Assembly (NCBI RefSeq): GCF_000337215.1
Contig: NZ_AOHZ01000047.1
Span: 62,001-126,000 of the forward strand
Direction: 5' to 3'
Length of the DNA stretch: 64,000 nucleotides
DNA from: Natronolimnohabitans innermongolicus JCM 12255
Lineage (GTDB): Archaea; Halobacteriota; Halobacteria; Halobacteriales; Natrialbaceae
Each line of letters opens with the position of its first letter. Position 1 is the stretch's first letter. Both the position numbers and the translations under genes were made by a program. Shown here piece after piece: positions 1,712 through 35,689 of the stretch. Under the pieces are notes generated by a model. It saw nothing but the letters and a program-made list of their open reading frames with translations, was not told the DNA's origin and made no database searches.

Positions 1712-3401
1712 GGGCAACACCTCGTGCGACCGGGGCGTCGGCCCCTTGCATGATCCGTCGGAGTCGCTCGTTGTCGACGCGGCGGGTCCACTCGTAGAAC
1801 CGCTCGCCGTCGTCGCGCTCGTCGCCGTAGGCCTCAAAGAGTTGCTCGAGCGCCGGAAGCACCGACTGTGCGGGAACGGCGTTCTCTACCCAGTCTACGA
1901 ACTCGTTGTCGGCGCCCAGTGAGCCGCCGAGCCCGAAGTCCATCCCCTCGACGATGTTGTCGCCTTCCTCGTTGGTGCTGTTCTCGTCCTCGAGTTTGAC
2001 GGTCTCGCCGCGGAAGCCGATGTCGGCGATCTGGGGCTGGGCACACGAGGCCGAGCAGCCGGACATGTGCATCCTGATGGCGTCGATATCGTCGGGGACG
2101 TCGATACGTTCGTCGAGTTCGCGGGCCCAGCGTTTGGTTCGTTTCTTGGTCTCGATGATCGCGTAGTTACAGAACTCGTTGCCCGTACAGCCGACGGCGC
2201 CCCGCGAGAACGCACCGGGGTCCGGCTGGTAATCCTGGGCGAACGGCTCCGCCAGCAGGTCCTCGACGTTCTCCTCGGGGATGTGCGTGATGAGGAAGTT
2301 CTGGTCGGTCGCGAGGCGGACGGAGGCGTCCTCCGTGCCGTACTCCTTCGCGGCGCGAGCGGCCTCGGCGAACTCCTCGCCGCCCATGCGGCCGGCGATG
2401 ACGTTGAAGCCGACGTACGTGAGCCCGTCTTGCTTCTGGTCGTGGACGCCGACGTGGTCGCCCTGGTAGCCCTCCGTCAGCCCCTCGCCGCTTTCGGGGA
2501 GGTCGACGGTACAGCGGTCGCGGACCGCCTCCTCGAACGCCGAGGGGCCCATCTGCTCGACGAGGTAGCGCATGCGACAGACGCCGCGGTTGTTGCGGTC
2601 GCCGAGTTCCTTGAACGTCTGGGCGACGGCGCGACAGAACTCGACGGCGTCCTCGGGCTCGATGAAGACGTCGAGTTCGGAGGCCATCCGCGGGCCGTCG
2701 GAGAGGCCACCGCCGACGCGGGCGTGGAAGCCGTAGTGGTACTCGCCGCCCAGTTCTTTCTTCGCGGGAACCAGGCCGATGTCGTTGATCTGGGACTGCG
2801 CGCAGTCGTGGGCACAGCCCGTGATTGTGAGCTTGAACTTCCGTGGCAGGTTCGCGTACTCGCGATTGCCCGTGAAGAACTCCGAAACGGCGTCGACGAC
2901 CGGTTGTGCGTTGAAACACTCGTGGTCGCTGATGCCGGCCGCGGGACAACCCAGTACGTTCCGGGCCGAGTCGCCACAGCCCTGGACCGTCGTCAGGCCG
3001 ACCTCGTCGTAGCGGTCCCACATCTCCGGGACGTCCTCGATCCGGATCCAGTGTTTCTGGATGTCCTGTCGGGTCGTGATATCGAGGTAGGCGTCGCCCC
3101 AGAGTTCGTTTTGCTCCTCGCCGCCGTACTCCTCGGGAGCGACGGCCAGGTCGTCGGTCACTTCACCGATGACCGCGGCCTGCTCGGGCGTGAGCTTCCC
3201 GCCCGGGACCTTCGTCCGGATCATGAAGTATCCCTCCTGTTTCTGGGCGTACATGCCGGCCCACTTCAGGCGCTCCCACTCGCCGCCGCCGGCGCGCTCT
3301 TCGATTTCCTCGAAGGAAAGTCCGTCCTCGGCGTACTCGTAGACGTCGTCGATGACGTCGAGGGGGTGTTTGTTCTGCTTGTACTGCTCGGTCGTATTCA
3401 C
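1701..3401 (-). CDS. Siroheme-dependent nitrite/sulfite reductase, ferredoxin type
   Basis: Six-electron assimilatory reductase of nitrite to ammonia or sulfite to sulfide, 566 residues. The siroheme/4Fe-4S ligands are visible as C405-x5-C411 (CTGNEFC) and C449-x3-C453 (CSASC), matching the spacing of spinach nitrite reductase. The fold is duplicated, with an N-terminal half carrying GCAHDCAQ. The GTG at 3401 is preferred because it gives the N-terminus MNTTEQYKQNKHPLD and overlaps the stop of a 21-codon ORF as GTGA; a GTG three codons upstream is the alternative. The second siroheme reductase at the right edge (CTGTEFC...CTADCGQ) looks more like the haloarchaeal nitrite enzyme, so this copy may be the sulfite reductase. 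That assignment is inference. Confidence 0.9.
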   Translation of the reverse strand: MNTTEQYKQNKHPLDVIDDVYEYAEDGLSFEEIEERAGGGEWERLKWAGMYAQKQEGYFMIRTKVPGGKLTPEQAAVIGEVTDDLAVAPEEYGGEEQNELWGDAYLDITTRQDIQKHWIRIEDVPEMWDRYDEVGLTTVQGCGDSARNVLGCPAAGISDHECFNAQPVVDAVSEFFTGNREYANLPRKFKLTITGCAHDCAQSQINDIGLVPAKKELGGEYHYGFHARVGGGLSDGPRMASELDVFIEPEDAVEFCRAVAQTFKELGDRNNRGVCRMRYLVEQMGPSAFEEAVRDRCTVDLPESGEGLTEGYQGDHVGVHDQKQDGLTYVGFNVIAGRMGGEEFAEAARAAKEYGTEDASVRLATDQNFLITHIPEENVEDLLAEPFAQDYQPDPGAFSRGAVGCTGNEFCNYAIIETKKRTKRWARELDERIDVPDDIDAIRMHMSGCSASCAQPQIADIGFRGETVKLEDENSTNEEGDNIVEGMDFGLGGSLGADNEFVDWVENAVPAQSVLPALEQLFEAYGDERDDGERFYEWTRRVDNERLRRIMQGADAPVARGVAHGD

Positions 3402-3463
3402 TCGAACCACCGCCGGCGAGCGGCGCTGTCGTCCGACGTGGCCGTACCGTCACGAAAGACCAT
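3398..3463 (-). CDS. Possible 21-residue leader ORF before the siroheme reductase
   Basis: ATG at 3463 opens a 21-codon frame (MVFRDGTATSDDSAARRRWFE). Its TGA overlaps the GTG start of the downstream reductase as GTGA. A TATA-like tttacga on the minus strand lies 26 nt before the ATG, so a leaderless transcript would begin at this ORF. It may couple translation of the reductase or may simply be untranslated leader. No homologue is known to me. Confidence 0.35.
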   Translation of the reverse strand: MVFRDGTATSDDSAARRRWFE

Positions 3464-33533: not shown

Positions 33534-34595
33534 ATGCGCGCAGCAGTCCTCGAAGAACACGGCGAACCGCTCTCGATCGAAGACGTCGACGCCCCGGAGC
33601 CGGATCCGCGCGGTGCGGTGGTCGAAGTCGAAGCCTGCGGCGTCTGTCGCAGCGACTGGCACGGCTGGCAGGGCGACTGGGGCTGGCTCGGCCTCGAGAC
33701 GCAGCCGGGACAGATCCTGGGCCACGAGCCCGCCGGCCACGTCGTCGCCGTCGGTGACGACGTCGAGAACGTCTCGGAGGGCGACCACGTCGCCGTGCCG
33801 TTCAATCTGGGCGACGGAACCTGTCACGAGTGCCGGCGCGGGCACTCGAACACCTGCGAGAACGTAATGCCGCTTGGCTTCGTCCCGCCCGTCCAGGGCG
33901 CGTTCGCCGAGCAGGTCCACGTTCCCGCCGCCGACCACAACCTCGTCTCCCTCCCCGACGGCGTCTCGTCGGTCGACATGGCCGGGCTGGGCTGTCGGTT
34001 CATGACCTCGTTTCACGCGCTCGCCCACCGCGCCGACGTGAGCGCGGGCGACTGGGTCTCGGTCCACGGCGTCGGCGGCGTCGGCCTCTCGGCGGTCCAC
34101 ATCGCCGACGCCCTCGGCGCGAACGTGATCGCCGTCGACCTCAAAGACGAGAAACTCGAGCACGCGACGGAACTCGGCGCCGTCGAAACGGTCAACGCGG
34201 CCGATGTCGATAACGTCGCCGCGGAGGTCAAGGCGATCGCCGACGGCGGCGCGAACGTCTCGATGGACGCGCTCGGAATCGAGACGACCTCCCAGAACTC
34301 CGTCCAAAGCCTCGGCAACCGCGGCCAGCACCTCCAGGTCGGGCTCACCACGCAGGACGAACAGGGGATGATTTCCGTCCCCTCCGATGCGATGGTGATG
34401 CAAGAAATCGAGTTCATCGGCTCGCTCGGCATGCCGCCGACCCGCTACGACGAGATCTTCCGGATGGTCGCGACCGGCAAACTCCGCCCCGCCGACGTCG
34501 TCTCCGAGACGATCGGCCTCGAGGACGTCACGGCGAAACTCGAGGCGATGACAGACTACGAAACCGAGGGCATTCCGGTCATCGACGAGTTCTGA
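33534..34595 (+). CDS. Zinc-dependent alcohol dehydrogenase
   Basis: 353-residue medium-chain dehydrogenase starting MRAAVLEEHGEPLSIEDV. Catalytic zinc ligands are visible (ACGVCRSDWH and GHEPAGHV). The structural lobe reads GDGTCHECRRGHSNTC, with only three of the usual four cysteines; an Asp sits at the first position. Cofactor motif is GVGGVG, followed by an acidic residue (VDLKD) that favours NAD. A tacgtattt TATA-like box is about 28 nt upstream. Substrate unknown. Confidence 0.9.
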   Translation: MRAAVLEEHGEPLSIEDVDAPEPDPRGAVVEVEACGVCRSDWHGWQGDWGWLGLETQPGQILGHEPAGHVVAVGDDVENVSEGDHVAVPFNLGDGTCHECRRGHSNTCENVMPLGFVPPVQGAFAEQVHVPAADHNLVSLPDGVSSVDMAGLGCRFMTSFHALAHRADVSAGDWVSVHGVGGVGLSAVHIADALGANVIAVDLKDEKLEHATELGAVETVNAADVDNVAAEVKAIADGGANVSMDALGIETTSQNSVQSLGNRGQHLQVGLTTQDEQGMISVPSDAMVMQEIEFIGSLGMPPTRYDEIFRMVATGKLRPADVVSETIGLEDVTAKLEAMTDYETEGIPVIDEF

Positions 34596-34683
34596 TCGCG
34601 GGCGGTCTCCCCGTTCGACGGTGATCGACGGACGGGGCAATCGAAGCTATCTCCGTTCCTGATAGTCGCGTGGTACCGAGTAG

Positions 34684-34692
34684 CATATTTAT
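34684..34692 (+). promoter_or_regulatory. TATA box of the cupredoxin gene
   Basis: catatttat, centred about 32 nt before the ATG at 34721, in an AT-rich patch within GC-rich flanks. Confidence 0.5.
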
Positions 34693-34720
34693 TTCCATAC
34701 CAGGCGAAGCAATACTGCCC

Positions 34721-35689
34721 ATGAAGGGTGAACACGACTACAGAAACGCTGGTTTAGCATCGATTACGCCAAGGATCGATCGACGACGGCTGTTGCAGGT
34801 CCTCGGTGCAGGCGCAGCCGTGACGCTGGGAACGAACGCTGTCGCTGCCGGTCCGACACTGCAACAAGACGAGATTCCGCCGGATCAGTCCGGTGACGGA
34901 ATTCACCCCGTGTTCGGCTTCTCGGCGCTCGCGATGGACGTCGATCCACCGGTCGAGCCGGATCACGTCGTCGACGCGATGATTCAACCCCGCGAGGACC
35001 GCGAGATCCCGGAGTTCTTCTTCGAGCCGACGGGGCTGTACGTCGAGCCGGGCGACACCGTCCAGTTCAGACTCGTCACGCCGCACCACTCCGTGACAGC
35101 GTACCACCCCGCACAGGGACAGCTACCGCGAGTTCCGGACGACGTTCCGCCGTTTTCCTCGCCCGTGTTGCCGGTGAACGCCTACTGGCTCTACACGTTC
35201 GAGCAGCCGGGCGTGTACGACATGCACTGCGGTCCGCACGAGATCTTCGGCCACGTGATGCGGATCGTCGCGGGCGAGGCGACGGGTCCCGGTGCGGAAC
35301 CGGTTCCTGAGCCCGAAACCATGGCCGAACCGAACGGCGATGGCGGAGAGATGGCCGACGAAAACGGGCCTCGCCAACACGGCGACGGCCACGAGGACGG
35401 CCCGCACGATCACGAGGACGGCCCGCACGACCACGAGAACGGGCCTCACCAACACGGCGACGGCCACCACAACAACGGGAACGGGTCGAACGGGGACGGA
35501 GCAGAGCCAGACGAGGACGACGCGGGACCACCGGATGACGCCGAGGGGGAGGGCCCCGAACTCCGACCCCCGGTCGGCGCTGCGCTGACCGTCCTCGGCG
35601 ACTCGGCGCTCGAGCCCGAGCGAATTATCGAGGAGGAGACGGTCTCTTGGGAGGAGATCGACGACGCGAACAAGGAGCTCGTGCTCTGA
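34721..35689 (+). CDS. Tat-exported cupredoxin-like protein with His-rich tail
   Basis: 322-residue secreted protein. A Tat signal (DRRRLLQVLGAGAAV) at about 20-33 is followed by one cupredoxin domain (about 95-190) with THH/TAYH in the first ligand loop and YDMHCGPHEIFGHVM in the second. C170 and H173 match blue-copper ligands, but the usual methionine position holds H178, with M180 two residues later. Residues 220-275 are a metal-binding-like run of HGDGHEDGPHDH repeats, then an acidic region and a short C-terminal domain. Probably a cell-surface copper protein. Confidence 0.8.
   Translation: MKGEHDYRNAGLASITPRIDRRRLLQVLGAGAAVTLGTNAVAAGPTLQQDEIPPDQSGDGIHPVFGFSALAMDVDPPVEPDHVVDAMIQPREDREIPEFFFEPTGLYVEPGDTVQFRLVTPHHSVTAYHPAQGQLPRVPDDVPPFSSPVLPVNAYWLYTFEQPGVYDMHCGPHEIFGHVMRIVAGEATGPGAEPVPEPETMAEPNGDGGEMADENGPRQHGDGHEDGPHDHEDGPHDHENGPHQHGDGHHNNGNGSNGDGAEPDEDDAGPPDDAEGEGPELRPPVGAALTVLGDSALEPERIIEEETVSWEEIDDANKELVL

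Follow-up and report, generated by a model that had tools for sequence, protein, structure and literature searches.

A pseudoazurin-like haloarchaeal cupredoxin with a histidine in the axial methionine position

The 64,000-nucleotide stretch of Natronolimnohabitans innermongolicus JCM 12255 analyzed here (the window) encodes a 322-residue cupredoxin of pseudoazurin type, in which a histidine, His178, aligns with the axial methionine. We consider it probable, with moderate confidence, that the protein is an exported one-electron carrier of haloarchaea with a natural axial-histidine (His3Cys) copper site; the carrier function is proposed by analogy with the family. The copper would be held by His123, Cys170 and His173, with His178 in the axial place of Met. 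Compared with a thioether, an axial imidazole is the harder and stronger donor; it would be expected to shift the copper site toward tetragonal, green-to-red character and to alter its potential, and may render the site pH-sensitive. From the ligand set, a perturbed (green, red or type-2-like) copper site may fairly be inferred.

The axial ligand is a classic tuning knob of type 1 copper, mostly studied in mutants. Judged from its sequence, the His3Cys protein looks like a variant of a pseudoazurin-like cupredoxin, with an axial histidine of a kind better known from laboratory mutants. A natural, conserved exchange of Met for His, set beside closely related Met-bearing proteins of the same order, constitutes a ready-made comparison for shifts of copper-site type in evolution and provides natural Met/His pairs for a site otherwise altered in the laboratory. 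Among the open-access literature matches listed, none described a natural cupredoxin that combines an axial His with an N-loop His. According to PMC4059628, the natural green and red sites known by 2014 were only a few, and nitrosocyanin was then the sole T2-class (red) cupredoxin characterized in detail.

The features of the gene and its product are collected in the table below. The open reading frame also has an alternative, longer GTG start at 34670. The position of the TATA-like element, which was assigned by eye without a promoter tool, fits the ATG start at 34721 rather than this GTG, because it lies 28-37 bases ahead of the ATG. The element suggests that the gene has its own promoter, with a leader that would be short or absent. 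The product consists of a putative signal (residues 21-43), a conserved IHPVFGF segment, the barrel (to about residue 190), a linker (about 195-280) and a C-terminal segment (283-322). The RRRLLQ of the signal, which we take to be a Tat motif, points to export.

Features of the axial-histidine cupredoxin gene and its predicted product in the window
Feature	Positions	Strand	Basis or observation
Pseudoazurin-like cupredoxin with axial His, 322 aa	34721..35689 (stop codon included)	+	ORF; Pfam/NCBIfam and PDB sequence searches
TATA-like element CATATTTATT	34684..34693	+	28-37 bases 5' of the ATG; direct reading of the sequence
Putative twin-arginine-type signal, residues 21-43 (RRRLLQ and hydrophobic stretch)	34781..34849	+	Read by eye, without a signal-peptide predictor
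Conserved N-terminal IHPVFGF segment and cupredoxin barrel, residues 61-194	34901..35302	+	Family alignments, AlphaFold2, structural matches
His122-His123	35084..35089	+	His123 is the predicted N-loop ligand, aligned with the His of pseudoazurin KGHNV
His129	35105..35107	+	87/87 relatives; opposite a gap in the pseudoazurin alignment
His169 (C-1)	35225..35227	+	His in 19/22 axial-His members and 0/65 others
Cys170, predicted copper thiolate ligand	35228..35230	+	87/87
His173 (C+3), predicted second equatorial His	35237..35239	+	87/87
His178 (C+8), axial position	35252..35254	+	Pseudoazurin alignment; Met 64, His 22, Thr 1 of 87
Met180, variable position	35258..35260	+	M9 G6 A3 V2 I1 F1 in 22 axial-His members
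Linker, residues 203-262	35327..35506	+	Very low model confidence, pLDDT 52-58
His-rich part of linker, residues 219-250	35375..35470	+	Sequence
Conserved C-terminal helical segment, residues 283-322 (...RPPVGAALTVL... to VSWEEIDDANKELVL)	35567..35686	+	pLDDT 92-98

The cupredoxin fold that had been proposed in a sequence-only reading of the gene was confirmed in the predicted models. AlphaFold2 gave the cupredoxin domain a mean pLDDT of 96.4, and this domain model matched both plastocyanin (PDB 2plt; Z 13.5, 93 aligned residues, rmsd 1.5) and pseudoazurin (1paz; Z 13.3). The model of the mature protein (residues 28..252 of the model) matched pseudoazurin 4bwu over 123 of 123 residues (VIA-align; Z 15.2, rmsd 2.5). 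The best PDB sequence matches were likewise pseudoazurins, with E values of 1.3e-7 for the single sequence and 4.1e-15 for a family profile of 83 rows. Among the NCBIfam models the best match was pseudoazurin TIGR02375 (E 1.3e-7), at 31.3 bits against a curated cut-off of 109.85. The score for PF00127 was below the gathering cut-off of 21.2 bits (15.8 for the full length, 18.4 for the domain only), and that for halocyanin TIGR03102 (13.6 bits) was far below its cut-off of 93.8; at E <= 0.01, these two models were matched by 82 and 81, respectively, of the 83 rows of the family alignment. A single cupredoxin domain was detected in the protein by the Pfam scan.

The protein shares with the pseudoazurins (TIGR02375; PDB 2jkw, 4bwu) the fold with C-terminal helices, the N-loop His, the Cys, the C+3 His and the loop spacing. 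In the predicted model the barrel is followed by packed C-terminal helices, and residues 283-322 are modelled as the equivalent of those of pseudoazurin. Unlike the pseudoazurins, it carries an axial His in place of Met, so that their His2CysMet ligand set is broken at C+8, as well as a His at C-1, the N-terminal IHPVFGF segment and a long linker of low model confidence. The halocyanins (TIGR03102) are also a haloarchaeal plastocyanin-like family; they normally have Met at C+8, unlike the window protein.

In both the phmmer and the profile alignments, His123, Cys170, His173 and His178 are paired with the N-loop His, the Cys, the second His and the axial Met of pseudoazurin. The Met at the C+8-equivalent position of pseudoazurin is the axial copper ligand. 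The numbering given earlier for Cys170, His173, His178 and Met180 agrees with the 322-residue translation, and the suggestion that a histidine takes the axial methionine place is upheld by these alignments. By alignment, His178 is the likely axial residue. Met180 had been considered as a candidate axial ligand and was ruled out by the pseudoazurin alignment together with the variability of its position: with residue 180 free to vary across the 22 axial-His proteins, Met180 fails as a conserved axial ligand.

Relatives were drawn mostly from 125 family genomes and 391 class genomes, with four loci from named records. The 110 domain matches represented 94 distinct domains (identical ones counted once), of which 87 were used after seven short rows had been dropped. 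Among these 87 haloarchaeal relatives, C+8 was Met in 64, His in 22 and Thr in one, a sample rather than a census, as at most 10 candidates per genome were scored and part of the weaker matches were retrieved as loci. Cys170, His173 and His129 were invariant, while His123 was present in 86 of the 87. The axial His occurred across genomes with five family codes (f1, f3, f4, f6, f9) and in all four of the named records (Natronorubrum texcoconense, N. halalkaliphilum, Halopiger goleimassiliensis and Halogranum rubrum). By the alignment, the replacement of the axial Met by His is conserved. In a phylum-wide search at E <= 1e-15, 38 of 392 genomes were matched, and among those listed (at most 10 candidates per genome) none lay beyond the same order.

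A second histidine, at C-1, distinguished the axial-His proteins from the others: it was present in 19 of the 22 and in none of the other 65, and three axial-His members have Tyr there. His122 was found in 20 of the 22 and in 15 of the 65. The axial-Met haloarchaeal sister groups (e.g., L019-L031, L056, L057) share the general architecture, the PHE..G loop and a similar C-terminal segment; they differ in having Met at C+8 and mostly Tyr, Leu, Met, Asn or Phe at C-1. His169 adjoins the Cys and occurs for the most part together with His178; it would probably lie at the electron-transfer surface, where it might tune partner docking or electron exit.

In the best tree (87 rows, 133 columns, ligand columns omitted), the axial His needs five changes, of which the starred, well-supported branches force one, and a single axial-His clade is not rejected by the AU test (p 0.141). 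The data set is small, with 133 columns for 87 rows, and the tool issued a warning. On these sequences, the axial His of the pseudoazurin-like family may have had one origin or several. The C-1 His needs four changes. Although the histidines at C-1 and C+8 mostly occur together, the test of their pairing was nonsignificant (one independent pair on starred branches, five overall; sign test p 1) because there are too few independent changes. One of the axial-His proteins with Tyr at C-1 (L059, genome G392) has a neighbourhood (locus L124) in common with that of L008, and a change of the C-1 residue within one orthologous group is therefore likely.

The motif C-x-P-H-E-x-x-G-H was found at 36 places in 33 of 391 genomes; a reversed control pattern gave 8 matches. 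Twenty of these places belong to the pseudoazurin-like family (18 read in sequence; G113:C10 and G117 assigned from coordinates) and five to other cupredoxins. The remaining 11, close in number to the control, were not shown to be cupredoxins; nine of them, including L158, whose motif is interrupted by a stop, were judged by eye, and the other two (G110:C1:2921602 and G113:C56:20009) were counted unread. Four of the five other cupredoxins (L165-L168, from genomes G119, G015, G082 and G081) are C-terminal domains of lipoprotein-like open frames of 506-555 codons, in which the axial-His domain (CCIPHEAAGHVGRIDVE or ..RVDVE) follows a His-bearing linker. The one scanned (L166) was matched by DUF5059 and Copper-bind. 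With Cys at C-1, this group apparently represents a second, independent axial-His type. A 150-codon lipoprotein-like halocyanin with CIPHEMDGH (L164:1715-2164, genome G122), which matches Copper-bind, is a third type. From motif and sequence reading across these three types, the axial His seems to have arisen repeatedly as a solution among haloarchaeal cupredoxins.

The sequence-only reading had also described a His-rich repeat tail and suggested that it could load or buffer metal. Ten histidines do occur in residues 220-250; "many" is a generous term for two HGDG and two PHDH words, and the stretch is an internal linker rather than a tail, because about 40 conserved residues come after it. 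Like the barrel, these are confidently modelled (pLDDT 96, 98, 98 and 92 in the last four blocks of the AlphaFold2 model of the mature protein). The His-rich insert sits between the pseudoazurin barrel and the C-terminal helices, since the match to 4bwu spans 123 of 123 residues. The linker, in which D, G, N, P and H abound, would join the two as a flexible acidic element. The 22 axial-His proteins differ in how many histidines follow the barrel, with counts between 0 and 13. The proposed role as a conserved metal loader was abandoned, given this variation in His content and the low model confidence of the linker.

Genes surrounding the cupredoxin, called with an in-house composition heuristic, encode a DEAD_2/Helicase_C_2 helicase, DUF7531, DUF5784, an alcohol dehydrogenase, DUF5789, a PHP protein, a ferredoxin and TrmB. 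In a comparison of 25 loci from 22 genomes (three genomes twice), the helicase was near the gene in at least 15 of the 22 genomes and the alcohol dehydrogenase (33534-34592) in at least four, these counts being lower bounds owing to unequal flank lengths. Between 28206 and 38674 of the window, the helicase, DUF7531, DUF5784, DUF5789, PHP and ferredoxin genes are partly common to f1 and f6 genomes, and the helicase also to f9. The ferredoxin, third gene downstream and on the opposite strand, is probably unrelated to the cupredoxin. An operon or functional partner was rejected: the adjoining genes are housekeeping-like, several stand at the same place in relatives, and none is an evident electron-transfer partner. 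The gene thus occupies a conserved chromosomal place rather than an evident electron-transfer operon.

Nor was an association found with nirK, which scored over the cut-off in 11 of 22 axial-His genomes and in 9 of 22 comparators, and which was absent at that cut-off from the genome of the window. The comparators were chosen from the same genera, and all but two of them (G098, G101) were covered by the motif search for the axial His. A link to denitrification was rejected on this distribution. Because neither the neighbourhood nor nirK gave a partner, the general reading of an exported one-electron carrier with an axial-His site was kept.

The protein could also be an ordinary blue copper carrier, in which His178 occupies the axial place with weak or no coordination and three strong ligands form a normal type 1 centre. 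Type 1 copper sites tolerate weak or absent axial ligands, and here both the fold and all three equatorial ligands are preserved. A laboratory counterpart of the exchange points the same way: in the laccase lacTT, the axial M460H mutation shifted the potential very little (371 vs 357 mV) and cut the efficiency 400-fold, according to PMC6487685, which also cites, by title, the same axial change in a laboratory mutant of azurin (M121H). The direction of potential tuning is therefore unpredictable, and an axial His may bring no benefit. Unlike M460H, however, the His of the present family is natural and conserved. C+8 is restricted to His or Met, rather than being a free mix (a single Thr among the 87), across five family codes, and the axial His recurs in other cupredoxins, which suggests that His was selected as a ligand. 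We regard the ordinary blue carrier as an unlikely alternative. A copper store, chaperone or buffer, in which the His-rich linker and extra histidines load or hold metal and the cupredoxin domain acts as a sink, would draw on the histidines of residues 220-250, on the 13 in the tail of L005 and on the extra ones at 122, 129 and 169. The His-rich stretch is nevertheless limited to some members, 11 of the 22 axial-His proteins having no His after the barrel, and no recognized copper-handling gene turned up among the nine neighbours in the window that were scanned or compared; such a role is improbable.

The remaining alternative is catalytic: His169 and His129 would form a second metal site in a single-domain nitrite- or NO-type enzyme, perhaps a trimer. 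In NirK, the His beside the type 1 Cys is a type 2 copper ligand, and the third type 2 His is supplied by another domain. Three NirK sequences (L131-L133) taken from the surveyed genomes show an HNVDSH or HNVDFH N loop and the HC pair, to be compared with H123-x5-H129 and H169-C170 in the window protein. The second type 2 His of NirK is at +5 from the N-loop His, whereas His129 is at +6, and with one cupredoxin domain the window protein lacks the domain that would provide the third. Moreover, His129 occurs in all 87 relatives, whether or not they have His169, and so need not belong to such a site; the distribution of nirK speaks against it as well. Nitrosocyanin (PDB 1iby), a trimer, lends the idea its other support, as its C95/H98/H103 have, by count, the same C+3/C+8 spacing as C170/H173/H178. 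The parallel with nitrosocyanin is a partial one, since the window family keeps His123 where nitrosocyanin has Glu60, a copper ligand. As His123 is retained in 86 of 87 relatives, the likely site is His3Cys, unlike the His2Cys-Glu of nitrosocyanin. The hhalign comparison of the window family with nitrosocyanin was weak (probability 5.4%, E 0.007) and stopped before H103, and nitrosocyanin was absent among the 50 structural matches listed for the window-protein models. A catalytic site is, in our view, improbable.

Extending the preferred reading of an axial-His electron carrier, one may speculate, as a tentative and rather doubtful proposal, that haloarchaea evolved more than once a natural His3Cys class, with an axial His often coupled to a C-1 His and a copper site that is retuned or gated by pH and might react with NO or nitrite, intermediate between the blue copper proteins and red nitrosocyanin.

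Two relatives depart from the common pattern. Contig C60 of the source genome (G000; L039, about 3171-3461) carries a second relative as a C-terminal half (CPPHEGMGMGMGMRIVV) whose axial loop has a GM repeat; the search reported no N-terminal half to go with it, and this is probably a truncated gene. At locus L051 (genome G293), the axial His is accompanied by the replacement of His123 by Arg (PHRSV) with retention of His122, and the ligand set may have shifted.
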